A stretch of DNA of 64,000 bases from Pseudomonadota bacterium (GTDB taxonomy: Bacteria > Pseudomonadota > Alphaproteobacteria > Rhodobacterales > Rhodobacteraceae): positions 248,001 through 312,000 of the forward strand of contig JAIUPC010000006.1 of assembly GCA_020161655.1 (NCBI GenBank), given 5' to 3'. Below the pieces are notes generated by a model. It saw nothing but the letters and a program-made list of their open reading frames with translations, searched no databases and was not told the DNA's origin. This document shows positions 23,577 to 42,136 of the stretch, piece after piece (positions within the stretch are counted from its first letter, which is position 1; each line of letters starts with the position of its first letter). The translations under genes were made by a program, and so were the position numbers.

Positions 23577-25948
<2,372 letters not shown>

Positions 25949-26050: not shown

Positions 26051-26095
26051 TTGACGCTTTTGAAACGTTATAATAAAAGTTTGGAACGTTCCAAA
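26051..26095 (+). promoter_or_regulatory. Promoter region with two LacI-type operators
   Basis: A perfect 16-bp palindrome, TTTGGAACGTTCCAAA (26080-26095), has the CG centre typical of LacI-family operators. A second, imperfect site at 26059-26074 (TTTGAAAC/GTTATAAT) matches it at 12 of 16 positions, with centres exactly 21 bp apart. A TTGACG -35-like element is at 26051; TAAAAG at 26074 (17-bp spacing) is a weak -10 candidate, and a TATAAT at 26069 is too close (12 bp). The LacI gene at 36321 in the same operon is the natural candidate repressor. Confidence 0.8.
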
Positions 26096-26112: not shown

Positions 26113-27117
26113 ATGAAATGGACTTTGATCGGTGCCAGCACCATTGCCGCGCAATACATGATCCGTGCGATCCGGGCGCAGGAAAACGGCGAAATCGTCA
26201 GCGTCCTCAGCGAGTCCGCCGCGCGCGGCGGCGACTATGCAAGCGAACATGGGATCCAGAAGTCCTTCACCGATCTTGATGAGGCCCTGGCCGATCCGGC
26301 GGTGGAGGCAGTCTACATCTCCACCACCAACGAAAAGCATCTCGCGCAGGCGCTCGCCGCCATTGCCGCCGGCAAGCATGTGCTTTGCGAAAAGCCGCTC
26401 GCCATGACGGTCGCCGATGCTGCGGAGATGGTCGCGGCGGCCGAATTGGCGGGTGTGACCTTCGCCACCAACCATCACCTGCGCTGTTCCGGCAGCCACC
26501 GGGCCGTGCGCGACCTGATCGCATCCGGGCGCATCGGCAAGGTCCTGTCGCTGCGCCTCTTCCATGCCGTCCACCTGCCGGAGAACCTGCGAGGCTGGCG
26601 CATCAACTCCGCCGAGGCCGGCGGCGGCGTGATCCCCGACATCACCGTGCATGACGCCGACGTGACCCGCTTCCTTCTTGGCGAAGACCCGGAGACGGTT
26701 GTGGCGCAGATGACCGCCTCGGGCATGGGCGAAGGCGTCGAGGACAGCGCCATGTCGGTCTGGACCATGCCTTCCGGCGCGATGGTGATGAGCCATGAGA
26801 GCTTCACCCACCCCTTCGCCGGATCGGGGTTCGAGGTTCACGGCACTGAAGGCTCGATCTTCGCGCGGGGCGTGATGACGCAAAATCCGGTGGGCGAGAT
26901 CGAACTTGTCACCAAGGCCGGACGCGAGGCCGTCGCCTATCCAACGCATGACCTTTACGTGCAGGGCGTCGCTGAATTCGTCGCCGCCACCCAAGGCAAG
27001 GGCAAGCCGGCGGCGACCGGTTGGGACGGGGTCAAATCGCTCGCCGTGGCCTTCGCCGTGCGCGAGGCGGCGGCGACCGGCAAGCGTCTGACGGTGAACT
27101 ACGGGGGCGCGAAATGA
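26113..27117 (+). CDS. Gfo/Idh/MocA-family NAD(P)-dependent oxidoreductase
   Basis: 334 residues, first gene of an eleven-gene catabolic operon. A Rossmann domain starts at MKWTLIGASTIAAQYM (an atypical GASTIA in place of GxGxxG), with the family motif VLCEKPLAMT near residues 94-103 (the EKP lysine) and a C-terminal beta-sheet domain containing GGGVIPDITVHDADVTRFLLG, whose Asp/His pair fits the usual catalytic DxxxHxxD-like site. Members oxidise or reduce sugars, inositols and related cyclic polyols, or act on 3-keto sugars. The stop overlaps the next start by 4 nt. The substrate is unknown. Confidence 0.88.
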   Translation: MKWTLIGASTIAAQYMIRAIRAQENGEIVSVLSESAARGGDYASEHGIQKSFTDLDEALADPAVEAVYISTTNEKHLAQALAAIAAGKHVLCEKPLAMTVADAAEMVAAAELAGVTFATNHHLRCSGSHRAVRDLIASGRIGKVLSLRLFHAVHLPENLRGWRINSAEAGGGVIPDITVHDADVTRFLLGEDPETVVAQMTASGMGEGVEDSAMSVWTMPSGAMVMSHESFTHPFAGSGFEVHGTEGSIFARGVMTQNPVGEIELVTKAGREAVAYPTHDLYVQGVAEFVAATQGKGKPAATGWDGVKSLAVAFAVREAAATGKRLTVNYGGAK

Positions 27118-28685
27118 CCAAGGTTGTCAGCCCCGCTGAAGCCGTCGCGCGCATCCCCGATGACGCCGTTGTCACCGTCTCCTCCTCCTCGTCGCTCGGC
27201 TGCCCGGATCTGGTGCTTCAGGCCATCGGCGAACGGTTCGACGCCGAAGGCCATCCCCGCGACCTGACGACGCTCCACCCGATCGCGGCGGGCGACATGT
27301 ACGGCGTCAAGGGCATGGACCATATCGCCAAGGACGGGCTTCTTTCCCGCGTCCTTGCCGGCTCGTACCCTTCGGGCCCTTCGAGCCTGCCGATGCCGGA
27401 AATCTGGAAGATGATCGTCGAGGATCGGGTCGCCGCCTACAACGTGCCCTCCGGCATCATGTTCGACATGCACCGCGAAGCTGCCGCCCGCCGTCCCGGC
27501 GTGCTGACCAAGGTCGGCTTCGACACCTTCGCCGACCCGATCCGCGAAGGCTGCGCGATGAACGACCGGGGCGCCGCCGCGCCCATTGTTCGGCGGGTGG
27601 AGTTCGACGGCGACACCTGGCTCCACTTCCCCAACATCGTGCCGAATGTCTGCATCCTCCGCGCCACCACGGCGGATGAGCATGGCAACCTGACCTATGA
27701 ACATGAGGGCGCCTATCTCGGCGGCCTCGAACAGGCGATCACGGTCAAGAACCACGGCGGCTTTGTCATCGCGCAGGTTGCCCGCGTCACCAAACGCGGC
27801 AGCCTTCGCCCCCATGACGTGCGGGTGCCGGGGCATCTGATCGACCTCATCGTCATCGACCCGCATCAGAAACAGACCTGCGAGACGCCCTATGACCCGG
27901 CTATTTCCGGCCAGATCATGCGGCCCTGGGGCAGCTTCAAGCTGGCGGAGCATGGCGTCGAGAAGATCATCGCCCGCCGCGCCGCGATGGAGCTGCGCGC
28001 CGGGATGGCGGCCAACCTCGGCTTCGGCATCTCCGCCATGGTGCCGCGCATCCTCTTGGAAGAGGGTCACCCGGAGGCGGTGACATGGGTTATCGAACAG
28101 GGTGCCGTCGGGGGCATGCCGCTGACCGGATTCGCATTCGGCTGTGCCTCCAACGCCGATGGCTTCGTCCCCTCGCCGCAGCAGTTCATCTACTTTCAGG
28201 GCGCCGGCTTCGACATGTCGTTCCTGTCCTTCCTGGAGGTCGATGTGGAAGGCAACGTCAACGTCTCGAAACTCGGCAAGAAGCCCTACCTGACCGCCGG
28301 CTGCGGCGGCTTTGTCGACATCACCTCGCATGCGAAAAAAATAGTCTATTCCGGCTGGTTCGAGGCCGGGGCAGAGATCGAGTTGACAGCAAAGGGCCTG
28401 AAGGTCGCCAAGCCCGGCAAGTTCACCAAGATGGTTGAGCAGGTGGAGCATGTCACCTTCTCAGGCCGCCGCGCCCGCCAGACCGGGCAGGAGGTGCTTT
28501 ACGTCACCGAACGCTGCGTGATGCGGCTGGGCGATACCGGGCTGGTCGCGACAGAGATCATGCCGGGGATCGTCCCTGAGCGTGACATCGCCGCCGCCAC
28601 CCAAGGCCGGGTGAAGATCGCGCCGGATGCGAAGCTGATGCCGCTGTCGCTGCTGAAGGAAGGCCCGATGGGGTGGCAGCCATGA
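27114..28685 (+). CDS. Family I CoA-transferase (acetate/propionate CoA-transferase type)
   Basis: 523-residue fused alpha-beta CoA-transferase of the Pct/YdiF type that exchanges CoA between acyl-CoA and a free acid through a glutamyl-CoA thioester. The catalytic glutamate is Glu328 in WVIEQGAVGGMP. The N-terminal half has SSSLGCPDLVLQAI and GVLTKVGFDTFADP, the C-terminal half GCGGFVDITSHAKKIVY. The start at 27114 overlaps the previous stop (ATGA), so the longer frame from 27021 is rejected. In this operon it probably activates the acid made by the aldehyde dehydrogenase; the actual acid is not known. Confidence 0.9.
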   Translation: MTKVVSPAEAVARIPDDAVVTVSSSSSLGCPDLVLQAIGERFDAEGHPRDLTTLHPIAAGDMYGVKGMDHIAKDGLLSRVLAGSYPSGPSSLPMPEIWKMIVEDRVAAYNVPSGIMFDMHREAAARRPGVLTKVGFDTFADPIREGCAMNDRGAAAPIVRRVEFDGDTWLHFPNIVPNVCILRATTADEHGNLTYEHEGAYLGGLEQAITVKNHGGFVIAQVARVTKRGSLRPHDVRVPGHLIDLIVIDPHQKQTCETPYDPAISGQIMRPWGSFKLAEHGVEKIIARRAAMELRAGMAANLGFGISAMVPRILLEEGHPEAVTWVIEQGAVGGMPLTGFAFGCASNADGFVPSPQQFIYFQGAGFDMSFLSFLEVDVEGNVNVSKLGKKPYLTAGCGGFVDITSHAKKIVYSGWFEAGAEIELTAKGLKVAKPGKFTKMVEQVEHVTFSGRRARQTGQEVLYVTERCVMRLGDTGLVATEIMPGIVPERDIAAATQGRVKIAPDAKLMPLSLLKEGPMGWQP

Positions 28686-29449
28686 GCGCCGTCCACCTGA
28701 TCCCGCGCGGGGCCATTGCCGAACTGAGGCTCGACAATCCGGCGAAGATGAACGCCTTCACGGTCGGGATGCTGGACGCGCTGGCCGGCCATCTCGATAA
28801 GATCGAGCGCGACCGTTCCATCGCTGCCGTGATGCTCACCGCCGAAGGCGACCGCGCCTTCTGCACCGGGGCGGACATCAACGGCTGGGGCGACCTCTCG
28901 CCCGCCGAGTTTGCCCGCCACTGGGTCCGCGACGGCCACCGCATTTTCGACCGGCTGGCGCGACTGTCAAAGCCCACCCTGGCGGTGCTGAACGGCCATG
29001 CCTTCGGCGGCGGGCTTGAGCTTGCGGCAGCCTGCGACATCCGCGTGATGGCGCCAAAGGCGACCCTCGCCCTGCCCGAAGCCGGTGTCGGCATCGTGCC
29101 GGGATGGTCCGGTACCCAGCGCCTCGCCCGGCTTCTGCCCGAGCCGATCCTGAAAGAGATGGCGCTTTTCGGCCGCCGCATCAGCGCCGAGCGCGCCTTT
29201 GCCGTTGGTTTCGTGGCCGAGGTCGCCGAAGACCCGCGCGCCGCTGCCGAGACAATCCTTGAACGCGCCGTGACCCTGTCGCCCCGCGCGGTCGAGATCA
29301 CCAAATCCATGATCCATGCCGCAAGGGACGAAGACCGCGGCGCGATGATCGAGGCGCTCGGGAGCGCCGCCATCGCCGCCACGGAGGACCGCGACGAAGG
29401 CGTCGCCTCGTTCCGCGAAAAGCGCAAACCCCAGTTTCCGGGAACCTGA
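28682..29449 (+). CDS. Enoyl-CoA hydratase/isomerase family protein
   Basis: 255-residue crotonase-fold protein. It has the oxyanion-hole motifs CTGADINGWGDLS and NGHAFGGGLELAAACDI, and the catalytic-region segment LPEAGVGIVPGWSGTQRL; a Glu equivalent (LPEAGVG) is kept while the second position is Pro in VPGW. It would hydrate, isomerise, or retro-aldol/hydrolyse the CoA thioester produced with the upstream CoA-transferase. The start at 28682 (ATGA overlap with the upstream stop) is preferred over 28673. The precise reaction is not predictable within this superfamily. Confidence 0.88.
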   Translation: MSAVHLIPRGAIAELRLDNPAKMNAFTVGMLDALAGHLDKIERDRSIAAVMLTAEGDRAFCTGADINGWGDLSPAEFARHWVRDGHRIFDRLARLSKPTLAVLNGHAFGGGLELAAACDIRVMAPKATLALPEAGVGIVPGWSGTQRLARLLPEPILKEMALFGRRISAERAFAVGFVAEVAEDPRAAAETILERAVTLSPRAVEITKSMIHAARDEDRGAMIEALGSAAIAATEDRDEGVASFREKRKPQFPGT

Positions 29450-29450
29450 C

Positions 29451-30977
29451 ATGACCGAAATGACCGTGATCGCCGCCTCGGGCGCCGCCCTGCCGCAAGA
29501 GCCGTTCCTTGGCCGCCACCTGATCGGTGGCACATGGCGGCAGAGCCTCTCGGCCAAGACGTTCGACCGGCATTCCCCGGCGCATGGCGTCCTTGCCAGC
29601 CGCTCAGCCCTCGGTGCCCGTGAAGATGCCGAGGCCGCGATCCGGGCCGCCCGGGCAAGCTTTGACAGCGGCAACTGGAGCCGCATTTCCGGCAAGGCCC
29701 GCGCCACGGTTCTTCTGAAGGCCGCCGACCTGATCGAGGCCAATGCCGACCGGATTGCGCTGATCGAGACACTGGAATCCGGCAAGCCGATCACTCAGGC
29801 GCGGGGCGAGGCTGCCGGTGCCGCCGACCTCTGGCGCTATGCCGCCTCGCTTGCCCGCACGATGCATGGCGACAGCCACAACACGCTTGGGCCGGATATG
29901 CTGGGCGTGGTGGTCAAGGAACCGATCGGCGTCGTCTCCATCATCACGCCCTGGAACTTCGCCTTCTGGATCCTTGGCCAGAAGCTTCCCTTCGCCCTCG
30001 CCGCCGGCTGTTCCTGTGTGGTGAAGCCTTCGGAAATGACGCCCTCCTCGACCGTGATCATGGGCGAGCTCCTGATCGAGGCTGGCCTGCCAGCCGGGGT
30101 CGTCAACATCGTCCTCGGCTACGGCCCCGATGTCGGCGGCACCATGACGACTGCCCCGGAGGTCGACATGGTGACCTTCACCGGCTCCACCGCCGTCGGC
30201 AAGTCGATCTCCGCCGCAGCATCGGCCACCTTGAAGAAGGTGGCGCTTGAGCTTGGCGGCAAGAACCCGCAGGTGATCTTTCCCGACGCCGACATGGAGA
30301 GCGCCGCCGATGCCGTGACCTTCGGCGTCTATTTCAACGCTGGCGAATGCTGCAACTCCGGCAGCCGGATCATCGTACATGAGGATGTGGCAGACGACCT
30401 TATCACCCGCGTCGTCGCGCTCTCGCGCAAGGTGGCCTTCGGCGACCCGCTCGACCCCGCCACGCAAGTCGGCGCGATCATCACGCCGCAGCATCTGGGC
30501 AAGATCGACAGCTATGTGCGCGAGGCCGAAAAGGCCGGGGCGGAAGTCGCCTTGGGCGGCGCGCGCCTGTCTGTGCCGGGCCTTTCGGGCGATTTCTACC
30601 AGCCGACAGTCGTGCGCGGCGTCACCCCCGGCATGGCCATCGCGCGGGAAGAGGTCTTCGGGCCGGTGCTTTCCGTCCTCACATTCCAGACCATGGAAGA
30701 GGCTTTGGCGCTGACGAACGACGACGCCTATGGCCTTTCGGCGGGGGTGTGGAGCGAGAACGTCCACACCTGCCTCGAATTTTCGCGCCGGGCGCAGGCG
30801 GGGACGGTCTGGACCAACACCTGGATGGACGGCTTCCCCGAACTGACCTTCGGCGGCATGAAGCAATCCGGTCAGGGGCGGGAGATCGGGCCCTACGGCC
30901 TTGACGAGTTCCTTGAGGTCAAGACGCTGGTCATGCGCATCGGCAAGACCCGCGCGCCCTGGGTGAGGCAGGGATGA
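29451..30977 (+). CDS. Aldehyde dehydrogenase (NAD(P)+)
   Basis: 508-residue ALDH-superfamily enzyme, cytoplasmic. The NAD-binding segment is TPWNFAFWILGQKLPFALAAG and TGSTAVGKSIS; the general-base Glu is in ELGGKNPQVIF, and the catalytic cysteine is Cys301 in NAGECCNSGSR. The C-terminal EVFGPVLSVL and GGMKQSGQGREIGPYGLDEF are typical of the betaine/gamma-aminobutyraldehyde-like group. It starts one base after the upstream stop and its stop overlaps the GMC gene, so it is part of the coupled operon; it presumably oxidises an aldehyde made by a GMC or SDR neighbour. Confidence 0.93.
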   Translation: MTEMTVIAASGAALPQEPFLGRHLIGGTWRQSLSAKTFDRHSPAHGVLASRSALGAREDAEAAIRAARASFDSGNWSRISGKARATVLLKAADLIEANADRIALIETLESGKPITQARGEAAGAADLWRYAASLARTMHGDSHNTLGPDMLGVVVKEPIGVVSIITPWNFAFWILGQKLPFALAAGCSCVVKPSEMTPSSTVIMGELLIEAGLPAGVVNIVLGYGPDVGGTMTTAPEVDMVTFTGSTAVGKSISAAASATLKKVALELGGKNPQVIFPDADMESAADAVTFGVYFNAGECCNSGSRIIVHEDVADDLITRVVALSRKVAFGDPLDPATQVGAIITPQHLGKIDSYVREAEKAGAEVALGGARLSVPGLSGDFYQPTVVRGVTPGMAIAREEVFGPVLSVLTFQTMEEALALTNDDAYGLSAGVWSENVHTCLEFSRRAQAGTVWTNTWMDGFPELTFGGMKQSGQGREIGPYGLDEFLEVKTLVMRIGKTRAPWVRQG

Positions 30978-32464
30978 GCGGCCCCGACATCATCATCATC
31001 GGCTCGGGCATCGGCGGTGCCACCATGGCCGCCCGCCTTGCCCCTTCGGGCCGCCGCATCCTGATCCTCGAACGCGGCGAGCGGCTTCAGGACTGCCCCG
31101 AGGCGCGCGATCCGGCGGCGATCTTCGGACGCGGCTATTTCCGCCCGAAAGAAATGTGGTTCGACCAGAACGGCGAAGGGTTCAACCCCGGAAACTATGC
31201 CTATGTTGGCGGAAACTCGAAATTCTACGGCGCGGTTCTCCTGCGCTACCGCGCCGAGGATTTCCGCCCACTCAAGCATATCGAAGGCACCACGCCCGGC
31301 TGGCCTATCGGCTACGACGACCTTGAGCCTTTCTACCAGGAGGCCGAGGCGCTTTACCGCGTGCGGGGCGAGTTGGGCTACGACCAGACCGAGCCGCCGC
31401 ATTCCGGCCCCTATCCCTTCCCGCCGATCCCGGACGAACCCTTCATCGCCGACCTTCGGCGCAGGCTTTCGGCGCAGGGCCTGCACCCCGGCCCGCTGCC
31501 GCTTGCCGTCGACCTCGACCGCTGGCTCGCCCGCGCACCGACCGGTTGGGACGCCTTCCCCGACACCTGCGGCGGCAAGCTGGATGCCGAGACGGCGGCC
31601 TTGGCCGAGGCGCTGAAGCACCCGAATGTCACGCTGATGACCGGTGCCCGAGTGACGCGCCTGATCGCCGAGGGGCGCCGCATCGTCGCTGTCGAATTTG
31701 AGCGCGGCGGGCGGGTAGAAAGGCTCTCCGCCCGCCATATCTGCCTTTCTGCGGGCGCGGTGATGTCGGCGGCGATCCTTCTGTCATCGGCGGATGCGGC
31801 CCATCCCACCGGCCTCGCCAATGGCTCCGATCAGGTCGGGCGCAACTTCATGAACCACAATCTCTCCGGCGTCATCGGCATCAGCCCCTTTCGCCGCAAC
31901 ACCACGGTCTATGAAAAGACCATCCAGTTCAACGACTGGTACCTGACCGGCGGCCCGAACGGTGAACCCCTTGGCAATATCCAGATGGTCGGCCGCATCA
32001 CCGGGCCGATCCTTGCCGCCGAGGCCGGACTGCCCTTGCCGCTCGCCCACTGGATCGCCGAACATTCGGTCCACTTGATGACCATGTCGGAGGATCTGCC
32101 GGTGCCGGACAGCCGGGTTCTGGTGAAGAACGGCAAGATCGAGCTGCACTGGCGCCGGACAAACTGGGCCGCGCATGAACTCCTGACGAAGCGGCTGAAA
32201 CAGGCCTTGCGCCGCGCAGGTTGGCCTATCGTCCTGTCGAAAGCCTTCGAGAAACGGACGCCGAGCCATCAGTGCGGCACCGCGCGCATGGGCGCCGATC
32301 CGGCCGCGAGCGTCGTCGACCCCTTCTGCAAGGCGCATGACATCGACAACCTCTGGATCGTCGATGCCTCCGTCCTGCCGACATCGGCGGGGGTCAACCC
32401 GTCTCTGACCATCGCCGCGCTGTCGCTGAGGACCGCCGACCGGATGCTAGAGGTGGCGGCATGA
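30974..32464 (+). CDS. GMC-family FAD oxidoreductase (first of two)
   Basis: 496 residues with the FAD-binding motif IIIIGSGIGGATMAARLAP at residues 6-24, ending LILERGE. The family C-terminal region is HQCGTARMGADPAASVVD (active-site His) and VDASVLPTSAGVNPSLTIAA (Asn pair). No signal peptide is present, so it is cytoplasmic or membrane-attached. The closest general types are gluconate or sugar dehydrogenase large-subunit-like and pyranose-oxidising GMC enzymes. It overlaps both neighbours by 4 nt. It probably oxidises a hydroxyl group of the operon's polyol or sugar substrate. Confidence 0.88.
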   Translation: MSGPDIIIIGSGIGGATMAARLAPSGRRILILERGERLQDCPEARDPAAIFGRGYFRPKEMWFDQNGEGFNPGNYAYVGGNSKFYGAVLLRYRAEDFRPLKHIEGTTPGWPIGYDDLEPFYQEAEALYRVRGELGYDQTEPPHSGPYPFPPIPDEPFIADLRRRLSAQGLHPGPLPLAVDLDRWLARAPTGWDAFPDTCGGKLDAETAALAEALKHPNVTLMTGARVTRLIAEGRRIVAVEFERGGRVERLSARHICLSAGAVMSAAILLSSADAAHPTGLANGSDQVGRNFMNHNLSGVIGISPFRRNTTVYEKTIQFNDWYLTGGPNGEPLGNIQMVGRITGPILAAEAGLPLPLAHWIAEHSVHLMTMSEDLPVPDSRVLVKNGKIELHWRRTNWAAHELLTKRLKQALRRAGWPIVLSKAFEKRTPSHQCGTARMGADPAASVVDPFCKAHDIDNLWIVDASVLPTSAGVNPSLTIAALSLRTADRMLEVAA

Positions 32465-33219
32465 GCGGCGTCGCACTCATCACCGGCGGCCAGCAGGGCA
32501 TCGGCTTCGGCATCGCCAAGGCGTTGGCGGCTGAGGGCTTCGCCATCGCCATCGCGTCCCTGCCGGACGAGAGCAGCGCCGCGGTCAAGCAGGCGCTGGC
32601 CGAACTCGGCCCCAAGGCCAGCTACTTCCGCCACGACCTTGCCGAGATCGCCCGCGCAGGAGACCTTCTGAACGCGGTCGAGGCCGCGTTGGGTCCGGTG
32701 ACGGCCTTCGTTTCCAACGCTGGCGTCCCCGCCATGGCGCGCGGCGACATGCTCGACATCAAGCCGGAAAGCTTTGACCACGTGCTTGGCATCAACCTCC
32801 GCGGCAACTTCTTCCTCGCGCAGGAAGTGGCGCGCCGGATGGCGGGGCGACGGTCGCCAGATTATAAGTCGATGAGCTTCATCACGTCGGTTTCCGCCGG
32901 AATGGTGTCAATCGAGCGGGCAGAATACTGCATCTCCAAGGCCGGGGCCTCGATGATGACCGCGCTCTTCGCCGCGCGCCTCGCCCCCCTTGGCATCGGC
33001 GTCTTCGAGCTTCGCCCCGGCATCATCGAAACCGAAATGACGGCGGGCGTGAAGGACAAGTACAGCCAGCGGATCGAGGCCGGGCTGGTGCCCGCCGGGC
33101 GCTGGGGCCAGCCTGGCGACATCGGCAAGGTCATCGTTCCCATCGCCACCGGGCAGATGGCCTTCGCGACCGGCACGGTCGTTCCGGTGGATGGCGGTCT
33201 GTCCATCCCGCGGCTCTAG
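32461..33219 (+). CDS. Short-chain dehydrogenase/reductase
   Basis: 252-residue classical SDR. Cofactor motif ALITGGQQGIGFGIAKAL at residues 5-22, NAG motif VSNAGVPAMARGD, catalytic Ser in ITSVSAGMVS and Tyr-x-x-x-Lys in YCISKAG, ending GTVVPVDGGLSIPRL. It is oriented like 3-oxoacyl-(ACP) reductase-type and sugar dehydrogenases. It overlaps the first GMC gene by 4 nt. It could reduce a keto intermediate or oxidise a secondary alcohol in the unknown pathway. Confidence 0.92.
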   Translation: MSGVALITGGQQGIGFGIAKALAAEGFAIAIASLPDESSAAVKQALAELGPKASYFRHDLAEIARAGDLLNAVEAALGPVTAFVSNAGVPAMARGDMLDIKPESFDHVLGINLRGNFFLAQEVARRMAGRRSPDYKSMSFITSVSAGMVSIERAEYCISKAGASMMTALFAARLAPLGIGVFELRPGIIETEMTAGVKDKYSQRIEAGLVPAGRWGQPGDIGKVIVPIATGQMAFATGTVVPVDGGLSIPRL

Positions 33220-33231
33220 AAAGGAAGTAGC

Positions 33232-34818
33232 ATGGCTTCGGGCTATGATTTCATCATCGTCGGCGGCGGTTCGGCTGGTTCAGTCCTTGCCGCGCGGTTG
33301 AGCGAGAACCCGTCTGCCCGAGTCCTTCTCTTGGAGGCCGGGCCGCGTGACTGGCACCCTTTCTATCACATGCCCGCCGGCTTCGCGAAGATGACCAAGG
33401 GCATCGGCAGCTGGGGCTGGCACACGGTTCCGCAGAAGCACATGAAGGACATGGTGATCCGCTACACCCAGGCCCGCGTACTGGGCGGCGGCTCGACGGT
33501 CAATGCGCAGATCTACACGCGCGGCAATGCGATGGACTATGACGAATGGCGCCAGCGCGGCTGCAGCGGCTGGTCCTACGAAGACGTGCTGCCCTATTTC
33601 CGCAAGTCGGAAGACAATGATACCTACGACAATCGCTACCACGGAAAGGGCGGCCCCCTGGGCGTCAGCAAGCCCGCCGCGCCGCTGCCGATCTGCGAGG
33701 CCTATTTCAAGGCCGCCGGCGAAATCGGCATCCCGCGCAACATGGACATGGCCGGGGAAGTTCAGGACGGCGTCGGCTACTACCAGTTGACCCAGCGCAA
33801 CGTGCGCCGGTCCTCCGCCTCCATCGCCTTCCTGAACCCGGTGCGGAGCCGGTCGAACCTGACGATCCGCACCGGCGCGCAGGTTCTGCGGCTGGTGGTG
33901 GAAAGCGGCCGCGCCGTCGGGGTCGAGCTTGCGGGCGAAGGCATCGTCCGCGCCGATGCCGAAGTCATCCTCTCTTCCGGCGCCATGGGCACACCGCGGC
34001 TTCTCCAGCTTTCCGGCATCGGCCCGGCGGATCATCTGCGCGCCGTGGGCGTGCCTGTCATCCACGATCAGGCTGAAGTAGGGTCGAATCTGCAGGACCA
34101 TCTCGACCTTTTCGTCATCGCCGAATGCACTGGCCCGCATACCTATGACCGCTATTCAAAGCCGCATCTGTCGGTCGTCGCCGGGATTCAGTACCTGCTG
34201 AGCCGGACCGGCCCGGTCGCCTCGTCACTCTTCGAAACCGGCGGTTTCTGGTACGCCGACCCCGATGCGCGTTCGCCCGACATCCAGTTCCACCTCGGCC
34301 TCGGCTCGGGGATCGAGGCTGGCGTGACGGCGATGGAAAATGGCGGCGTCACCCTCAACTCCGCATATCTCCGACCGCGGTCGCGCGGCACCGTCCGGCT
34401 CGCCTCGGCGGACCCGGCGGCGGCGCCGCTCATCGATCCGAACTACTGGTCTGACCCGTACGACCGCGAAATGTCGATCCGTGGCCTGAAGCTCGCGCGC
34501 GAGATCATGGCGCAGAAGGCGCTGGCGCCCTTCGTGAAGTCCGAGGTTCTGCCGGGGCCGGAGGTGCGGACCGACGAGGACTACTTCAATTACGCCTGCG
34601 CCAATGCCAAGACCGATCATCACCCCGCCGGCACCTGCCGGATGGGCTCCGATCCGACTGCCGTTGTCGACCCGGAACTGCGATTCAACGGCATCGAACG
34701 CCTCAGGATCGTCGACAATTCCATCATGCCGACGCTGGTTTCGGCGAACACGAACGCAACTGCCATCATGATCGGCGAAAAGGCCGCCGACATAATCAAG
34801 GCCGCGCACGGAGGTTAG
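33232..34818 (+). CDS. GMC-family FAD oxidoreductase, choline-dehydrogenase-like (second of two)
   Basis: 528 residues with FIIVGGGSAGSVLAARLSE at 5-23, LLEAGP, and the GMC signature segment ARVLGGGSTVNAQIYTRGN near 80-98. The active-site His pair is in TDHHPAGTCRMG (His463/His464) and the terminal catalytic Asn is in VSANTNATAIMIGEKAAD. It resembles the choline/alcohol dehydrogenase branch more than the first GMC protein of this operon does. A GGAAG site lies 4 nt before the ATG. The presence of two distinct GMC enzymes suggests two oxidations of the same substrate. Confidence 0.93.
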   Translation: MASGYDFIIVGGGSAGSVLAARLSENPSARVLLLEAGPRDWHPFYHMPAGFAKMTKGIGSWGWHTVPQKHMKDMVIRYTQARVLGGGSTVNAQIYTRGNAMDYDEWRQRGCSGWSYEDVLPYFRKSEDNDTYDNRYHGKGGPLGVSKPAAPLPICEAYFKAAGEIGIPRNMDMAGEVQDGVGYYQLTQRNVRRSSASIAFLNPVRSRSNLTIRTGAQVLRLVVESGRAVGVELAGEGIVRADAEVILSSGAMGTPRLLQLSGIGPADHLRAVGVPVIHDQAEVGSNLQDHLDLFVIAECTGPHTYDRYSKPHLSVVAGIQYLLSRTGPVASSLFETGGFWYADPDARSPDIQFHLGLGSGIEAGVTAMENGGVTLNSAYLRPRSRGTVRLASADPAAAPLIDPNYWSDPYDREMSIRGLKLAREIMAQKALAPFVKSEVLPGPEVRTDEDYFNYACANAKTDHHPAGTCRMGSDPTAVVDPELRFNGIERLRIVDNSIMPTLVSANTNATAIMIGEKAADIIKAAHGG

Positions 34819-34821
34819 ACC

Positions 34822-35130
34822 ATGATCCGCCATATCGTCCTGATCCGGTTCCGGAGTGACGTGACCGAAGACACCATCAGGACCATTTTCGACGATCTCC
34901 ACAGCATCGAAGGCAGCATCCCCGGCCTAGGCGCCGTCCATTCCGGGCGAAGCGAAAGCCCCGAAGGGATCGAACGCGGCTATATGCACGGCTTCACGTC
35001 CGACTTCGCTGATTGGGACGCGCTCGCCGCCTATCAGGAACACCCCGACCACAAGCGCGTCAGTGCCGCCCTTGTCGAACATGCCGAGGGCGGGCTTGAC
35101 GGGATTCTCGTCTTCGACCTGCCCTGCTGA
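34822..35130 (+). CDS. Dabb (stress-responsive A/B barrel) domain protein
   Basis: 102-residue single-domain protein starting MIRHIVLIRFRSDVTEDTI, the typical N-terminal strand of the dimeric alpha-beta barrel (Dabb) family, with GSIPGLGAVHSGRSES and YQEHPDHKRV further on. Members occur beside sugar-catabolic genes and some act as isomerases, cyclases or as ligand-binding partners. A GGAGG site lies 7 nt upstream of the ATG. It is placed between the second GMC enzyme and the DUF993 protein. Confidence 0.88.
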   Translation: MIRHIVLIRFRSDVTEDTIRTIFDDLHSIEGSIPGLGAVHSGRSESPEGIERGYMHGFTSDFADWDALAAYQEHPDHKRVSAALVEHAEGGLDGILVFDLPC

Positions 35131-35150
35131 CCCAAGCGAAAGCCCGTGCC

Positions 35151-36314
35151 ATGCTGATCCTGCCCACTTCGGATGCCCGCCTCGAAGCCTACGCGCTGAC
35201 CGGCACGCCACTGACCCCGCGCGCGCCCCGAGTTCCGCTGACGCGGACGGCCTTTGCCGCCGCACATGTCGTGTCGGACCCTTTGCGCGAGCGGAACCCC
35301 TGGGATACCCGCCCTGCCGTGGACTGGAAGGCGACGCTCGTCTTTCGTCAGTCGCTCTGGGATCAGGGCCTTGGCCTGGCCGAGGCGATGGACACCGCCC
35401 AGCGCGGCATGGGCGTGGATTGGCTGACCGCGAAGGAACTGATCGAGCGGACCATGAAGGCCGCGAAAGTGCATCCGCTGAAACCGCGCGTCGCCTGCGG
35501 CGCGGGCACCGACCATGCCGCGGCCTCAGACCTCGCGACACCGGACGGCATCGCCCGTGCCTATGAGACGCAGATGGCGGCGATCGAGAACGCGGGCGGC
35601 CAGCTTATCCTGATGGCCTCGCGCGCGTTTACGGCGATTTCGGCCGTGAAAGACACGTATCACAAGGTCTACCGCCGGCTGATCGACAATGCGAAAGACC
35701 CGGTGATCCTGCATTGGCTCGGCGACATGTTCGACCCAGCGCTCAGGGGCTACTGGGGCACCACGGATGTCGACGCCGCGTCGGATTTCGTGCTGGACCT
35801 CATCGCCGAGAACCCCGCCAAGGTCGACGGCATCAAGATTTCGCTCCTCGACCAGGCGCATGAGGAAGCCTTCCGCAAGCGCCTGCCGGCGGGTGTGCGG
35901 CTTTATACCGGCGACGATTTCAACTATGCCGACCTCATCGCCGGGGATGGCGCGCACTACTCCCACGCGCTCCTTGGCATCTTCGCCGCCATTGCGCCGG
36001 CCGCCGCGCAAGCGCTTGAGGCACTGGCGGAAGGCGACATGCAGGCCTACCACCGGCTTTTCGCCCCGACGGTCCCCCTCAGCCGCGAGATCTTTCGGGC
36101 GCCGACGCGGTTCTACAAGGCGGGCATCGCCTTCCTCGCCTGGCTCAACGGCTACCAGAGCCATTTCATAATGCCCGCCGGTTTCCAGTCGAGCCGCGAC
36201 ATCACCCATTATGCCGAGGTGTTCCGGCTGGCCGACAGGGCCGGCCTCCTTCGCGACCCTGATCTTGCCGAACAGAGGATGCGCCAGCTTCTGGCGATCC
36301 ACGGGCTAGTCTGA
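35151..36314 (+). CDS. DUF993 family protein, dihydrodipicolinate-synthase-like aldolase
   Basis: 387 residues. It matches the DUF993 group, distant TIM-barrel relatives of the DHDPS/N-acetylneuraminate lyase superfamily. Features are AFTAISAVKDTYHKVYRRLI, ILHWLGDMFDPALRGYWGT and the lysine-bearing strand VDGIKISLLDQ, where Lys229 is the candidate Schiff-base residue. Function is not established for the family; a retro-aldol cleavage of a keto-acid or keto-sugar would fit the operon, which then provides a glycerate kinase for a three-carbon product. It directly precedes the LacI regulator gene. Confidence 0.85.
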   Translation: MLILPTSDARLEAYALTGTPLTPRAPRVPLTRTAFAAAHVVSDPLRERNPWDTRPAVDWKATLVFRQSLWDQGLGLAEAMDTAQRGMGVDWLTAKELIERTMKAAKVHPLKPRVACGAGTDHAAASDLATPDGIARAYETQMAAIENAGGQLILMASRAFTAISAVKDTYHKVYRRLIDNAKDPVILHWLGDMFDPALRGYWGTTDVDAASDFVLDLIAENPAKVDGIKISLLDQAHEEAFRKRLPAGVRLYTGDDFNYADLIAGDGAHYSHALLGIFAAIAPAAAQALEALAEGDMQAYHRLFAPTVPLSREIFRAPTRFYKAGIAFLAWLNGYQSHFIMPAGFQSSRDITHYAEVFRLADRAGLLRDPDLAEQRMRQLLAIHGLV

Positions 36315-36320
36315 GCCGGG

Positions 36321-37331
36321 ATGGAAAGGCGCCCCACCATCATCGACGTGGCCCTACGCGCGGGCGTGTCGAAATCGACGGTGAGCCTTGTCCTCCAGCA
36401 CAGTCCCGCCGTGCGGGAGGAAACCCGTGCCCAGGTCCGCGCCGCCATGGCCGATCTCGGCTATGTCTACAACCGCACGGCGGCAACCATGCGGACGGCG
36501 AATGCCGGCCTGATCGGGCTTGTCATCAACGACCTCAGGAATCCGTTCTTCACCGAATTCGCCACCGCCCTGCAGATGGCGCTCGCCAAGCGTGGCTATG
36601 CCGCCGTGGTGGCAAATACGGATGAAGACAGCAGGCTTCAGGCGCAGGTCATCGGCGCGATGATCGAACATGGCGTCTCCGCCCTCATCGTCTCGCCCGC
36701 CTACGGGGTCGATGCGACTGCCTTCGACGCCATCGAACGGGCGGGGATTCCGGCAATGCAGGTCTTGCGCAAGGTCGATGCGCGGACCGGACTTTTCCCC
36801 TTTGCGGCACCGGATTACCGCGCAGGCGGCCACCTCGCGACCGAACATCTTCTGGCATCGGGCGCGCGGCGGATCGCCTTCGTCGGCGGGCTTGCGGGGC
36901 GCGAGGTCACGCAGGAGCGCATGTCGGGCTATCTCGCGGCTTTGCAATCCCGAGGGCTGAAGCCACTTTTCCTGCCTGGCCGCGCCAGCCGGGCTTTCGG
37001 GCGCGATGCGGCCCTGGTGTTGCGCCGCGATCACCCGGAGGTTGACGCAGTGCTTTGCTTCAACGACCTGATCGCGCTTGGCCTCCTCAGCGGCACTGCC
37101 GAGATCGGCCGAGAGGTTGGGAAGGCATTCAAAGTTGTCGGATTCGACGATATCGAGGAATGCGCGCAGTGCTACCCTGCGCTGACCACGGTCCGTTGCG
37201 ACATCGCCAGCTTTGGCGAAGGCGTCGCGCGGACGGTGCTGGAATGGCTGGAGGAGGGCGTGATGCCGCAACCTGAAACCCGGACGCCGGTGGAACTGGT
37301 GATCCGTACATCAAGCGGGGCCGTGGCGTGA
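36321..37331 (+). CDS. LacI-family transcriptional regulator
   Basis: 336 residues. The N-terminal LacI helix-turn-helix with hinge helix is TIIDVALRAGVSKSTVSLVL at residues 5-24, and the periplasmic-binding-protein-like effector domain spans about 60-336 (GLVINDLRNPFFTEF, VVGFDDIEECAQCYPALTTV). It is embedded inside the operon and its stop overlaps the glycerate kinase start by 4 nt, an autoregulated arrangement. The two CG-centred operators at 26059-26095 in front of the operon's first gene are the likely targets. The inducer is presumably the unknown pathway substrate or an intermediate. Confidence 0.95.
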   Translation: MERRPTIIDVALRAGVSKSTVSLVLQHSPAVREETRAQVRAAMADLGYVYNRTAATMRTANAGLIGLVINDLRNPFFTEFATALQMALAKRGYAAVVANTDEDSRLQAQVIGAMIEHGVSALIVSPAYGVDATAFDAIERAGIPAMQVLRKVDARTGLFPFAAPDYRAGGHLATEHLLASGARRIAFVGGLAGREVTQERMSGYLAALQSRGLKPLFLPGRASRAFGRDAALVLRRDHPEVDAVLCFNDLIALGLLSGTAEIGREVGKAFKVVGFDDIEECAQCYPALTTVRCDIASFGEGVARTVLEWLEEGVMPQPETRTPVELVIRTSSGAVA

Positions 37332-38587
37332 CGCTTTCCGATCCGGTCGCTTTCCTCCGTGGCCTGTTCGACCGCGCTGTCGAGGTCGCCGACCCGATGC
37401 GGTCGCTGGCACAGCATCTGCCGCCTCGGCCCGAAGGCCGCGTGGTCGTCGTCGGCGCCGGCAAGGCCAGCGCCCGGATGGCCGAGGCGGTCGAGGCCGC
37501 CTGGGGGCCTTGCGAGGGGCTTGTGATCACGCGCTACGGCTATGGCCGGCCCTGCCGCGGGATCGAGATTGTCGAGGCTGCCCATCCGGTCCCGGATGAG
37601 GCCGGTTTTCGCGCCACGGACCGGATGCTCGACCTGCTCGGCGGGCTGGGGGCGGATACCTTCATCCTCGCACTCATCTCGGGCGGGGCATCGGCGCTGC
37701 TGGTTGCGCCGGCGGAAGGGGTTTCGCTGGCTGACAAGTCGGCGGTCAACGCGGCCCTTCTTGCCTCGGGCGCGCCGATCGACCGGATGAACACCCTTCG
37801 CAAGCACCTGTCGCGGGTGAAGGGCGGCCAGCTTGCCGCCGCCGCTTACCCGGCGCGGATGCTGAGCCTGATGATCTCGGACGTGCCCGGCGACGATCCG
37901 GCGCTCATCGGTTCGGGTCCGACTGTCGGGGATGCCTCGACCGCTTCCGAGGCGCGGGGGATCCTCGACCGCTGGCTGGTGGATGTCCCGGAAAGCGTCC
38001 GCGCCGCGTTGAACCGGCCAACCGGCGTCGTGCCGCCCGGCGATGCGCGCCTGTCGCGGGTGGAGAACCTGCTCTACGCCGCCCCCTCGCAATCACTCGC
38101 CGCCGCCGCCGAAATGGCGCTGGGAGCAGGGTGGGAGGTGCGGCTTCTGGGCGACGCGCTGGAGGGCGAGGCACGCGATGTCGCCCGCGAACAGGCGGCG
38201 ATGGCGCTGAAGGACAAGGCGGAACGGCCCGAGGGCGCGCCGCCGATCCTGCTTCTCTCGGGCGGCGAGCTGACCGTCACCCGGCGCGGCAATGGAGTCG
38301 GCGGGCCGAACGCGGAGTTCAGCCTTGCACTTGCCATCGCGCTCGAAGGCGCGCCGGGCATCCATGCGATTGCCTGCGACACCGACGGCGTGGACGGCGC
38401 GGCGGAGGTTGCCGGAGCCGTGGTCACGCCTGCGACGCTTGAAAAGGCGAAAAAGGCCGGAATAGACCCTCAATCCGCCCTCGCCGCCAATGATGCCCAC
38501 AGCTTCTTCGGTGCCATCGGCGATCAGGTCGTCACCGGGCCGACGCTGACCAATGTCAACGATTTCCGGGCGATCCTGATCGGCTGA
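37328..38587 (+). CDS. Glycerate 2-kinase (MOFRL/TtuD family)
   Basis: 419-residue glycerate kinase of the GckA/TtuD type, forming 2-phosphoglycerate from D-glycerate. The N-terminal domain has VVVVGAGKASARMAEAV at about 37-53, SGGASALLVAPAEGVSL near 117-133 and LNTLRKHLSRVKGGQLA-like TLRKHLSRVKGGQLAAA; the C-terminal MOFRL domain has LLSGGELTVTRRGNGVGGPN and AIACDTDGVDGAAEVAGA. It uses a GTG start overlapping the LacI stop (GTGA). As last gene of the operon it suggests that the pathway yields glycerate or hydroxypyruvate/tartronate semialdehyde. Confidence 0.93.
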   Translation: MTLSDPVAFLRGLFDRAVEVADPMRSLAQHLPPRPEGRVVVVGAGKASARMAEAVEAAWGPCEGLVITRYGYGRPCRGIEIVEAAHPVPDEAGFRATDRMLDLLGGLGADTFILALISGGASALLVAPAEGVSLADKSAVNAALLASGAPIDRMNTLRKHLSRVKGGQLAAAAYPARMLSLMISDVPGDDPALIGSGPTVGDASTASEARGILDRWLVDVPESVRAALNRPTGVVPPGDARLSRVENLLYAAPSQSLAAAAEMALGAGWEVRLLGDALEGEARDVAREQAAMALKDKAERPEGAPPILLLSGGELTVTRRGNGVGGPNAEFSLALAIALEGAPGIHAIACDTDGVDGAAEVAGAVVTPATLEKAKKAGIDPQSALAANDAHSFFGAIGDQVVTGPTLTNVNDFRAILIG

Positions 38588-38593
38588 GGGGCC

Positions 38594-39994
38594 TTAATGC
38601 GCCCAAGGGCCGTGCTGGCCCTTGGCGCCGGTATCCATCCTTTCGAACCCATGCAGCCCGAAGAAGTCGCGCTGACCCTGGATCATGTTCGCCGTGCCGC
38701 GCGCGGTGCGGAGCGTGTCGAAATAGGCGATGCCGGAGCCGAGCGCGGGAACCGCGATCCCCGCCGTCACGGCATTGGCGACGACCGAGCGAAGCGCGCC
38801 TTCGGTACCCTTCACCATCCGCGTGAAGGCTGGCGCGAGGAGCAGGTTCCGCGCGCTGTTTTCCTCAAGCGCACTCGCCATGTCGTTCAACATCCGCGAC
38901 CGGATGATGCAGCCCGCACGCCAGACGCGCGCCACATCGGGCAGATGGATTTTCCAGCCGAATTCGGCGGAAGCCGCCGCGAGCATCCCGAAGCCTTGCG
39001 CGTAGCACATGATCTTGCCGGCGATCAGCGCCTGTTCCAGCGCCTGAAGCGTGACGGCGCCATCGGCAAGCCTGCCGCCACCCCGGCCGAAAAGCGCCTC
39101 GGCCTCGGCCCGCTCAGTTCGCCGCGCCGAAAGATTGCGCGCCGCGACGGCGGCCTCGATTGCCGGGACCGGGCTGGCGAGGTGCTGCGCCTCGATCACC
39201 GTCCAGCGGCCCGTGCCCTTCTGGCCGGCGGAATCGACGATGACGTCGAGGAGCGGGCCGCCGGTCGCGGCATCGGTGCTTTGCGCGACGATGCCGGAAA
39301 TCTCGACGAGGTAGGATTCGAGCGGCCCCTTGTTCCAGGCCTCAAAGGTCTTGCCGATCTTGTCGTCCGAAAGGCCAAGGCCGTCGCGCATGATCCCGTA
39401 GGTCTCGGCGATCATCTGCATGTCGGCATATTCGATACCGTTGTGGACGGTCTTGACGAAATGGCCGGCACCTTCCGGCCCCATCCAGGTCGCGCAGGGC
39501 TCGCCCTCGAACTTCGCGCTGATCGCCTCAAGGATCGGCGCGACGCGGTCCCAATGTTCGCGCGCCCCGCCGCCCATGATCGCGGGCCCGTGTCGCGCGC
39601 CCTCTTCCCCGCCCGAAACGCCAATGCCAAGGAACGGCCCGGTCGCGCTCTTCATGCGGCGGACGGTATCCTGGAAATTCGCATTGCCGGCGTCGATGAT
39701 GAGGTCGTCGGCATCCAGAAGCGGCCTCAGGGCAGCGATCTGCTCATCAACCACCGGCCCGGCCGGCACCATCAGGATGATCGTGCGCGGCCTCGCGATG
39801 GCGGTCACCAGATCGGCAAGGCTTTCGGTTGGCACGATCCGTTGCGCCAGATCGCCCGCGGAGGCGAAGAACACCCGCGTCACCGAAGTCGTGCGATTGA
39901 AGACGGCGATGCCGAAGCCCTTCTCGGCGATGTTGAGCGCCAATGCGGCGCCCATCGTGCCAAGGCCGATCAGGCCGATATCAGCATGTTTCAT
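38594..39994 (-). CDS. gnd: 6-phosphogluconate dehydrogenase (decarboxylating)
   Basis: Converts 6-phosphogluconate and NADP+ to ribulose 5-phosphate and CO2. 466 residues, against 468 in Escherichia coli. Rossmann motif IGLIGLGTMGAALALNIAEKG at residues 6-26; catalytic segment GHFVKTVHNGIEYADMQ with Lys181, His184, Asn185 and Glu188, equivalent to the canonical Lys/His/Asn/Glu set; SAGQKGTGRWT and the C-terminal RDFFGLHGFERMD are also present. The start at 39994 has a GGGGG site 5 nt upstream; the longer frame to 40078 is rejected. It is convergent with the glycerate kinase gene (6-bp gap) and divergent from the next gene. Confidence 0.96.
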   Translation of the reverse strand: MKHADIGLIGLGTMGAALALNIAEKGFGIAVFNRTTSVTRVFFASAGDLAQRIVPTESLADLVTAIARPRTIILMVPAGPVVDEQIAALRPLLDADDLIIDAGNANFQDTVRRMKSATGPFLGIGVSGGEEGARHGPAIMGGGAREHWDRVAPILEAISAKFEGEPCATWMGPEGAGHFVKTVHNGIEYADMQMIAETYGIMRDGLGLSDDKIGKTFEAWNKGPLESYLVEISGIVAQSTDAATGGPLLDVIVDSAGQKGTGRWTVIEAQHLASPVPAIEAAVAARNLSARRTERAEAEALFGRGGGRLADGAVTLQALEQALIAGKIMCYAQGFGMLAAASAEFGWKIHLPDVARVWRAGCIIRSRMLNDMASALEENSARNLLLAPAFTRMVKGTEGALRSVVANAVTAGIAVPALGSGIAYFDTLRTARGTANMIQGQRDFFGLHGFERMDTGAKGQHGPWAH

Positions 39995-40135
39995 CCGCGT
40001 CCCCCTTCGTTCGCAATCAGGCAGCGTCCACTGTCGCGTGCCATGTGCCGGATGTACAGAGTTTGCGCTACCAGTCACCCTTGCGTAAGCCGCCGGGTTC
40101 TGCCGGAATGGCCGGAGTTACGGGAGGGAATGGCG

Positions 40136-41002
40136 TTGAAGATCGGGTTTCTCGGCACCGGCCTGATGGGCACACCGATGATCCGCAGGCTGGCGGCGGC
40201 GGGGCATCAGATTCGGGTCTGGAATCGCACCCCCGACCGCGCCGCGGCGCTGTCCCCGGTTGCCGAGGTCTGCGCAACGGCGGCTGATGCTGCCCGCGAC
40301 AGTGACATGGTGATTTCCATGCTGCTCGACGGGCCGGTGACGCGTGACGTGCTGGAGGGTCTGGGCGTGATTGCCGCGATGGGCAAGGGCGGGCTGCTCA
40401 TCAACATGGCCTCGGTCGAGCCTGCGACGGATATCGCGCTGGCGGCCAAGGCCAGGGCGAAAGGTGCAGGCTATCTCGACGCCCCTGTCTCGGGCGGTGT
40501 CGCCGGGGCGGAAGCCGGGGCGCTCGCCATCCTCGTTGGCGGGTCGGAGGCGGATTTCGTCCGCGCTGAGCCATTTTTGCGCCTGATGGGACGCCCGACG
40601 CGGATTGGAGAGTCCGGCGCGGGCCAGGCGGCAAAGCTCGCCAATCAGGTCATTGTCGGCAGCACCATCGCCGCCGTGGCAGAGGCGTTCTGGCTGGCCG
40701 AAGCGGCGGGCTGCGATCTTGGCCTTCTGCGCGAGGCGCTGCGCGGCGGCTTCGCCGACAGCCGCATTCTCGACCTTCACGGCAAGCGCATGGTGGATGG
40801 CAATTTCGTTCCGGGCGGGCGGGCCGCGCTGCAACTGAAGGATCTCGACAACGCTCTGGCCTTGGCGGCCGAAAAGGGCCTGACCTTGCCGGTTTCACGT
40901 ACGGCGCGTGAAGGCTATGCCGGTCTGGTGGCGATGCCAGACGGCGCGGACCTTGACCACGCCGCCTATTTCCTCTGGCTGGCCGAGGGCGCGCGTCGGT
41001 GA
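40136..41002 (+). CDS. beta-Hydroxyacid dehydrogenase, tartronate-semialdehyde-reductase-like
   Basis: 288-residue NAD(P)-dependent enzyme of the 3-hydroxyisobutyrate dehydrogenase family. The N-terminal cofactor motif is KIGFLGTGLMGTPMIRRL, the substrate motif LDAPVSGGVAGAEAGALAI near 115-133, and the catalytic lysine is Lys167 in GAGQAAKLANQ. Start choice: a GGGAGG at 40122-40127 lies 2 nt before the ATG at 40130 but 8 nt before the TTG at 40136, so TTG (product MKIGFLG...) is preferred; both are in frame. The gluconokinase gene overlaps its end by 4 nt. Reduction of tartronate semialdehyde to glycerate, feeding the glycerate kinase, is the favoured guess. Confidence 0.85.
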   Translation: MKIGFLGTGLMGTPMIRRLAAAGHQIRVWNRTPDRAAALSPVAEVCATAADAARDSDMVISMLLDGPVTRDVLEGLGVIAAMGKGGLLINMASVEPATDIALAAKARAKGAGYLDAPVSGGVAGAEAGALAILVGGSEADFVRAEPFLRLMGRPTRIGESGAGQAAKLANQVIVGSTIAAVAEAFWLAEAAGCDLGLLREALRGGFADSRILDLHGKRMVDGNFVPGGRAALQLKDLDNALALAAEKGLTLPVSRTAREGYAGLVAMPDGADLDHAAYFLWLAEGARR

Positions 41003-41493: not shown

Positions 41494-41510
41494 GGCGGCG
41501 TGAGGCCGAT

Positions 41511-42128: not shown

Positions 42129-42136
42129 GCGCCCCC

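Follow-up and report, generated by a model that had tools for sequence, protein, structure and literature searches.

The 64-kb window analysed here, the whole 64,000-nucleotide stretch of contig JAIUPC010000006.1 from a Rhodobacteraceae genome, contains an operon of eleven genes at positions 26113 to 38587 of the + strand, all pointing in the same direction. The operon is a member of a widely conserved catabolic cluster, and sequence comparison indicates that its first gene very probably encodes an orthologue of 1,5-anhydro-D-fructose reductase (AFR). The genes and the two operator-like sites preceding them are the following:

26059..26074, + strand: second operator-like site, TTTGAAACGTTATAAT, weaker than the main one and 21 bp upstream of it
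26080..26095, + strand: perfect 16-bp palindrome TTTGGAACGTTCCAAA, probable LacI-family operator, conserved upstream of idh
26113..27117, + strand: idh, Gfo/Idh/MocA enzyme, very probable AFR orthologue (best PDB matches 2glx, 5.3e-108, and 4koa, 1.5e-103)
27114..28685, + strand: cat, family I CoA-transferase (CAT) of the FadX/YdiF type (PF01144; YdiF 2ahu, 2.7e-92)
28673..29449, + strand: ech, enoyl-CoA hydratase/dehydratase (ECH) of the crotonase fold (PF00378)
29451..30977, + strand: aldh, aldehyde dehydrogenase (ALDH; PF00171, 4.5e-160; E267 and C301 in 98/98 aligned sequences)
30974..32464, + strand: gmc1, GMC oxidoreductase 1, FAD glucose/fructose dehydrogenase-like (closest PDB chains: glucose dehydrogenase 8hdd/6a2u and fructose dehydrogenase 7w2j)
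32461..33219, + strand: sdr, SDR oxidoreductase of the PRK12745 family (NF009386, 328 bits against a cut-off of 250)
33232..34818, + strand: gmc2, GMC oxidoreductase 2, alcohol/choline dehydrogenase-like (PF00732/PF05199; PDB 8b7s, 9lq0)
34822..35130, + strand: dabb, Dabb (A/B barrel) protein (PF07876, 5.2e-21)
35151..36314, + strand: duf993, DUF993 protein (PF06187, 4.1e-173)
36321..37331, + strand: laci, LacI-family regulator (PF00356 and PF13377)
37328..38587, + strand: gck, glycerate 2-kinase, DUF4147 plus MOFRL (PF13660, 2.3e-81; PF05161, 7.3e-35)

An earlier note on this DNA had listed eleven genes in one direction, and both this layout and its family names, the latter checked with Pfam and NCBIfam, are borne out. 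Its description of the spacing, overlaps of 4 nt or gaps of at most 20 bp, holds in that all ten junctions are tight, but not at cat/ech, where the overlap is 13 nt with a GTG start (an alternative ATG at 28682 would bring it to 4). The overlap is 4 nt at idh/cat, aldh/gmc1, gmc1/sdr and laci/gck, and the gaps are 1 bp (ech/aldh), 12 bp (sdr/gmc2), 3 bp (gmc2/dabb), 20 bp (dabb/duf993) and 6 bp (duf993/laci). The note had also held that the genes fit no textbook pathway; with gene 1 recognisable as an AFR orthologue the operon is less of an orphan than that.

Several residues are kept throughout the aligned relatives: E328 of CAT within its IEQGA motif (104/104), the YxxxK of the SDR (88/88) and H432 of GMC1 (70/70), which begins directly at its FAD-binding motif. 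E116 and E136 of ECH, present in 102/102, are what we take to be the two catalytic glutamates of a crotonase; position 162 was also considered for a catalytic Glu and rejected, because it varies between E and R. The glycerate kinase scores 199 bits against NF041176, under its cut-off of 550.

The AFR orthologue and its conserved cluster

The two best solved relatives of gene 1, 2glx and 4koa, are both 1,5-anhydro-D-fructose reductases. Gene 1 is 54% identical to its counterpart in the Sinorhizobium meliloti cluster, which is the protein of PDB 4koa at 332 of 333 residues, and when S. meliloti AFR is the query the operon gene scores 309 bits, the next-best two of the 18 paralogues in the window genome reaching 88 and 81. 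K94, D176, H180 and the GAS motif, presumably the catalytic Lys, Asp and His and the nucleotide-binding motif of AFR, are kept in 53/53 aligned sequences. Myo-inositol dehydrogenase was tried as an identity for gene 1 and rejected (TIGR04380, 136.6 bits vs a cut-off of 355).

The AFR gene of S. meliloti, reportedly named SMc04400 by Kuhn et al. (2006), a tag found in no searched paper, shares its cluster with an ABC transporter, CAT, ECH, ALDH, two GMC, SDR, LacI, DUF993 and glycerate kinase genes. Twelve other proteins of this cluster are 43-77% identical to their partners, a comparison in which the four transporter proteins were set against those of Peteryoungia and the glycerate kinase and Dabb were left out. 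In the excerpts from which all papers with PMC numbers are cited here, SMc04390, the GMC2 counterpart, bears the name L-sorbose dehydrogenase, SMc04391 is an SDR and SMc04392 a dehydrogenase (PMC12542648), SMc04396 is a dextrin-induced sugar transport gene (PMC4960864) and SMc04401 a regulator (PMC4560400); these published numbers fit the order of the S. meliloti cluster.

At a threshold of E <=1e-75, an AFR orthologue was found in 32 of 244 genomes, and 30 of these 32 are also DUF993-positive (Fisher p 1.7e-24, uncorrected for kinship, with 46 DUF993 genomes hand-counted, possibly 45, among the 244, and assuming that both draws hold the same genomes). The two AFR genomes off the DUF993 list, G099 and G158, contain the operon without DUF993. 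The two genes are not always adjacent: G021 has an operon without a local DUF993 and a DUF993 elsewhere, the AFR-like gene of G156 is only 48% identical and lies on a different contig from DUF993, and in G013, G050 and G191 the parts of the cluster lie on different contigs.

Within the order, 81 of 390 genomes have DUF993, as do 36 of 398 from a phylum-wide draw. Five fetched loci (L001, L002, L198, L200 and L201) show the full order idh-cat-ech-aldh-(transporter)-gmc1-sdr-gmc2-dabb-duf993-laci-gck, and the arrangement exceeds what chance would give. Eleven more loci have the full order without an adjacent gck and many others show small differences; the organisms include many Rhodobacterales and Rhizobiales, with Peteryoungia as an annotated example. 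Altogether 171 DUF993 loci were read, namely the window, 158 further loci (L062-L219) and 12 stretches from named plasmid records. Eighty-six of them hold at least one of idh and gmc1 (both in 46, idh alone in 23, gmc1 alone in 17), 26 belong to a second cluster type, 6 to a partial type and 53 lack the core genes; the duplicates L063/L214, L068/L219 and L072/L201 reduce the total to 168 distinct loci and the AFR class to 83. Most single-gene loci had flanks of 10 kb, not long enough to span this cluster. In the sample of the order, with longer flanks (78 loci; the five of 83 matches left unfetched were the window's own and four partial ones), gmc1 is present in 37/37 idh-positive loci, and for the gmc1-only loci L199, L215 and L216 AFR lies just beyond the stretch or on another contig. 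An obligate pairing of AFR with GMC1 was considered and rejected: it holds in the DUF993 sample, but L255-L259 have GMC1 without AFR.

The DUF993 tree contains a 91-member clade (support 1.0) with all 86 AFR/GMC1 loci, and a 26-member clade (support 0.994) of 23 second-type loci, two partial ones and one without core genes. Among the extra members of the larger clade, L193, L194 and L138 lie close to contig ends, L218 has laci-cat-ech-sdr-duf993 only, with its contig starting 10 kb upstream, and L126 has ALDH, GMC2 and CAT matches without AFR, its other genes being judged from open reading frame (ORF) starts alone. The second cluster type (L161, L228, L221) combines a ribose-type ABC transporter, alcohol dehydrogenase, aldo/keto reductase, acyl-CoA dehydrogenase and xylose-isomerase-like TIM barrel with ALDH, GMC2, CAT, ECH and SDR, and L228 also has Dabb and an electron-transferring flavoprotein (ETF). 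A third context (L222, L225, L227) joins DUF993 to Gfo/Idh and xylose-isomerase-like proteins, with an enolase-superfamily gene in L222 and L225 and tripartite carboxylate transporters in L225 and L227.

Operator-like sites, transporter and alternative endings

The palindrome TTTGGAACGTTCCAAA is the genome's sole perfect copy, and nowhere else does the window match it with 3 mismatches or fewer (expected number of matches, 0.07). Of the 57 loci that combine a window-like DUF993 with AFR/GMC1, 24 had a usable region upstream of idh, and in all 24 at least 12 of the 16 positions are matched there. With an operator matrix built from these 24 related promoters, TTTGAAACGTTATAAT has the window's second-best score, 17.8, and the next best is 7.2. 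A same-genus relative carries two copies of GGAACGTTCC upstream of AFR; a palindrome scan did not find the same palindrome in S. meliloti-type Rhizobiaceae promoters. The product of laci is the probable regulator of the operon and would act as a repressor from the palindrome upstream of gene 1.

In the relatives an ABC transporter sits at the aldh/gmc1 junction, with two permeases and an ATPase between these genes, and the gene for its solute-binding protein (SBP) lies within the stretch in 38 of the 40 gmc1-positive loci of the order sample. The window operon has no transporter genes; an SBP orthologue (80%), permeases and an ATPase are found on contig C13 of the same genome, followed by one ORF and then a D-lyxose/D-mannose isomerase (NF051472, 224.6 bits, cut-off 350). 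The SBP family matches glucose-binding proteins. Immediately in front of the C13 SBP gene are two weaker sites with scores of 18.8 and 14.7, against 2.8 for the next best of those 20 kb; this suggests that the operon and the C13 transporter form one regulon. In relatives with an in-cluster transporter, the SBP upstream region reaches 12 of the 16 positions in just 4 of 55 cases, and the transporter there may therefore be under its own variant site or regulator.

Seventeen further places with the transporter but no adjacent full operon were examined. Eight are clusters with the CAT/ECH core and no local DUF993 (L253, L255-L259, L261, L262), four contain a D-mannose isomerase (L252, L254, L260, L264; calls of 310-325 bits, below the NCBIfam curated cut-off of 600) and three a D-lyxose/D-mannose isomerase (L249-L251); L265 lies beside a second-type cluster and L263 is unclear. 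In L264, an AFR gene (59%) stands by the mannose-type transporter, the D-mannose isomerase, a fructokinase-like kinase and a 2-keto-3-deoxygluconate (KDG) kinase (252 bits), and this genome also has a DUF993 operon (L176).

Within the stretches read, sdr, duf993 and gck are all missing from eight clusters: L253, L255-L259, L262 (near a contig end) and L275. An SdhA-like flavoprotein gene is found near seven of them (on the opposite strand in L253), a levoglucosan-dehydrogenase-like Gfo/Idh gene in six (in two pieces on the opposite strand in L253/L269), Dabb in all except L262, and a KDG kinase gene in four (NF052444, 261 bits in L267, 270 in L268 and 230 in L275; L273 by 61% identity to L267). 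The clearest exchange is in L275, from the same genus (G099), where the order idh-cat-ech-aldh-gmc1-gmc2-dabb-laci is kept at 67-84% identity and a flavoprotein and a KDG kinase, overlapping by 4 nt, stand in for sdr, duf993 and gck. None of the 171 DUF993 loci, many with short flanks, has a KDG kinase match of more than 200 residues. L261 has SDR and glycerate kinase genes without a local DUF993, which is found elsewhere in its genome. This swap of sdr, duf993 and gck for flavoprotein and KDG kinase is the best clue to the route. Its simple reading is that both endings consume KDG, through the kinase in one and through an aldolase and glycerate kinase in the other; a redox step would come from the flavoprotein in the former and from the SDR in the latter. 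In L267 (871-5085), the levoglucosan-dehydrogenase-like gene, the SdhA-like flavoprotein and the KDG kinase form one unit beside the CAT/ECH core, which may be an anhydro-sugar module of its own.

DUF993 and the proposed catabolic route

The AlphaFold2 model of the DUF993 protein (predicted local distance difference test score 92.2) is a TIM barrel of the DHDPS/N-acetylneuraminate lyase superfamily, matching 4dnh (SMc04132, an uncharacterised DUF993 protein) and then DHDPS and N-acetylneuraminate lyases. K229 (in GIKIS) and H188 (in LHWLG) are invariant in 171/171 DUF993 proteins (168 distinct). K229 lies in model strand 225-230, which places it on strand 6 as for a Schiff-base lysine, and a weak profile comparison aligns it with the invariant DHDPS lysine. 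From these features together we infer a Schiff-base aldolase with His in place of Tyr as acid/base; whether it is specifically a KDG aldolase we consider an even call. Filing the protein under DHDPS proper (PF00701) was rejected, because the Tyr and the TTGE motif, which mark the DHDPS active site, are lacking; Pfam does not call it a PF00701 member, and it is likened to such enzymes only in its proposed mode of action. No paper naming DUF993 or PF06187 was found in the literature searched, which lacked most subscription journals. S. meliloti has two DUF993 genes (L229, PDB 4dnh), and the solved SMc04132 differs from the operon's; SMc04132 and SMc04390-04392 share one PhaR-dependent proteome module (PMC12542648).

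Taken together, the substrate class is probably a 1,5-anhydro sugar (1,5-anhydro-D-fructose and/or 1,5-anhydroglucitol/-mannitol). After uptake by the mannose/glucose-type ABC transporter encoded elsewhere in the window genome, GMC1 and AFR would interconvert the C2 ketone and hydroxyl to give 1,5-anhydro-D-mannitol, and the pair could epimerise C2 of 1,5-anhydroglucitol. GMC2 and ALDH would oxidise the primary carbon (C6) to a carboxylate, and the CoA-transferase would convert it to a CoA ester with an acidic C5-H and the C4-OH in the beta position, which suits a crotonase with both catalytic glutamates. The crotonase would remove this beta-hydroxyl to leave an enol ether, whose hydration would open the ring to KDG, with the SDR supplying a redox step. 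DUF993 would then split KDG via a lysine Schiff base into pyruvate and D-glyceraldehyde, which ALDH and the glycerate 2-kinase would carry through glycerate to 2-phosphoglycerate; release of D-glyceraldehyde by a retro-aldol step would thus explain the kinase. The stereochemistry fits: once C6 of AFR's manno product is oxidised and the chain is read from there, its configuration is that of D-KDG, from which D-glyceraldehyde would follow. The reported AFR product is 1,5-anhydromannitol, and Rhizobiaceae are said to use 1,5-anhydrofructose via AFR, with the following enzyme given as unidentified (PMC12441222).

The gene identities, AFR orthology, conserved order, operator-like site, DUF993 fold and module exchange come directly out of the computation; we infer every chemical step, above all those from the GMC1/AFR step through the DUF993 cleavage. 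Read broadly, as an aerobic catabolic route for 1,5-anhydro-hexoses, the proposal is tentative, a little short of an even call; KDG as an intermediate is marginally favoured. The fuller reading, a 1,5-anhydroglucitol/1,5-anhydrofructose pathway that opens the ether ring via a uronic-acid-like CoA ester and a crotonase, with CoA recycled by the CoA-transferase and hence catalytic and with DUF993 as a new His-for-Tyr KDG aldolase family, is doubtful.

A number of observations weigh against the proposed route. 1,5-Anhydromannitol is reported to be converted to mannose by a P450-like enzyme (PMC12441222), and the operon encodes no such enzyme; dextrin rather than an anhydro sugar is the reported inducer of the S. 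meliloti solute-binding gene (PMC4960864); the SDR and Dabb lack a firm role; and L255-L259 keep GMC1 and CAT/ECH without AFR, so AFR is not indispensable. The KDG kinase scores, 230-270 bits, fall short of the curated cut-off, 400, four of the eight exchanged clusters yielded no such kinase, and the kinase might serve the flavoprotein's own reaction, together in six clusters with the levoglucosan-dehydrogenase-like gene. On another contig the window genome encodes a kinase with 44% identity to that of the exchanged variant, and so it may not depend on DUF993 for KDG. DUF993 itself also occurs in clusters without AFR, its hhalign probability to DHDPS is 29% (E 5.8e-4) with seven sequences and 1.8% with three, H188 takes the DHDPS Tyr position in 171/171, and the TTGE motif is absent from an alignment of 22 DUF993 sequences; with Tyr and TTGE unmet, its pyruvate chemistry is not assured.

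The mannose step reported in Rhizobiaceae (PMC12441222) raises a variant with the same substrates and oxidation at C1, in which 1,5-anhydromannitol would become mannose or mannonate, CAT and ECH would dehydrate mannonyl-CoA to KDG, and DUF993 would cleave it. The gene group around AFR in L264 and the D-lyxose/D-mannose isomerase in the window genome's transporter locus speak for it, but there is no lactonase or C1 oxygenase among the eleven genes. Free mannonate, moreover, has ordinary dehydratases and needs no CoA, and we consider oxidation at C1 quite unlikely. That the operon degrades some other sugar resembling glucose or mannose, be it free mannose, an osone or a glycoside, is unlikely, though a somewhat less improbable alternative than that C1 variant; AFR activity would then be a side activity of a 2-keto-sugar reductase. 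AFR reportedly reduces several osones, and the transporter family looks mannose/glucose-type; against this, the enzyme is said to have been purified from a strain isolated on 1,5-anhydrofructose, and relatives have a shorter isomerase/kinase mannose route beside the same transporter. The reported induction by dextrin (PMC4960864) also favours such a sugar.

The earlier note had suggested a branched route in which retro-aldol cleavage leads to glycerate on one side and to an acid and its acyl-CoA on the other. In this reading DUF993 would cut first, and the acid fragment would enter beta-oxidation by way of CAT, ECH and SDR. Glycerate kinase and CoA enzymes are both present, and both acyl-CoA dehydrogenase and ETF occur in the second type of DUF993 cluster, but CAT and ECH are retained where KDG kinase replaces DUF993, and the operon has no thiolase. 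The note's interpretation is partly supported, and we regard this branched route as very improbable.

Neighbouring genes and comparison with known systems

The operon begins 164 bp past a KatG-like peroxidase gene (23642-25948), which has a divergent LysR regulator gene (22665-23576) beside it. KatG would possibly be useful if the GMC enzymes release hydrogen peroxide; its membership of the operon, considered on adjacency alone, was rejected. Downstream, a convergent 6-phosphogluconate dehydrogenase gene closes the operon and opens a gluconate-like neighbourhood (38594-46475) with a 3-hydroxyisobutyrate-dehydrogenase-like gene, two small kinases, a ribose-type ABC transporter and a ROK regulator.

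The cluster is a concrete candidate for an aerobic 1,5-anhydroglucitol route. It would place an experimentally known enzyme, AFR, in a whole proposed pathway across many Rhodobacterales and Rhizobiales, and DUF993 gains a testable reaction; CoA-dependent dehydration of a sugar acid, if true, would be unusual carbohydrate chemistry. According to a 2025 review (PMC12441222), no analogous oxidative route for 1,5-anhydroglucitol has been described, and lowering this compound with a probiotic in two rare neutropenias would first require an aerobic enzyme.

The literature searched, with most subscription journals outside it, yielded no characterised operon of this kind, CoA-dependent sugar-acid route or anhydro-sugar gene cluster. 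The nearest known system is 1,5-anhydro-D-fructose catabolism in Sinorhizobium morelense/meliloti, to whose AFR (PDB 2glx/4koa) gene 1 is very probably orthologous; as excerpted, the published route names just AFR and an unidentified P450-like step to mannose, and the rest of the cluster goes unmentioned there (PMC12441222). The anaerobic 1,5-anhydroglucitol-6-phosphate pathway, with the glycyl-radical enzymes YbiW/PflD, has the substrate class in common (PMC12441222). Unlike it, the operon here would be oxidative and aerobic, and a search limited to its eleven genes found neither a phosphotransferase system nor a glycyl-radical enzyme. The proposed lower half, with an aldolase fold, ALDH and glycerate 2-kinase (PF13660 and PF05161), resembles the non-phosphorylative Entner–Doudoroff pathway, which uses KDG aldolase, glyceraldehyde dehydrogenase and glycerate 2-kinase. 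It differs in that CoA-transferase and crotonase would do the dehydration, there being no IlvD/enolase-type sugar-acid dehydratase among the eleven genes. The oxidative deoxyribonate pathway uses a DUF849 cleavage enzyme, a domain absent from these eleven genes, to which the search was confined. For the dehydration, a close parallel is the pair of carnitine CoA-transferase and crotonobetainyl-CoA hydratase, in which a CoA-transferase likewise works with a crotonase that acts as a dehydratase, CoA being recycled; the CoA-transferase here belongs to another family, and its proposed substrate would be a sugar acid.

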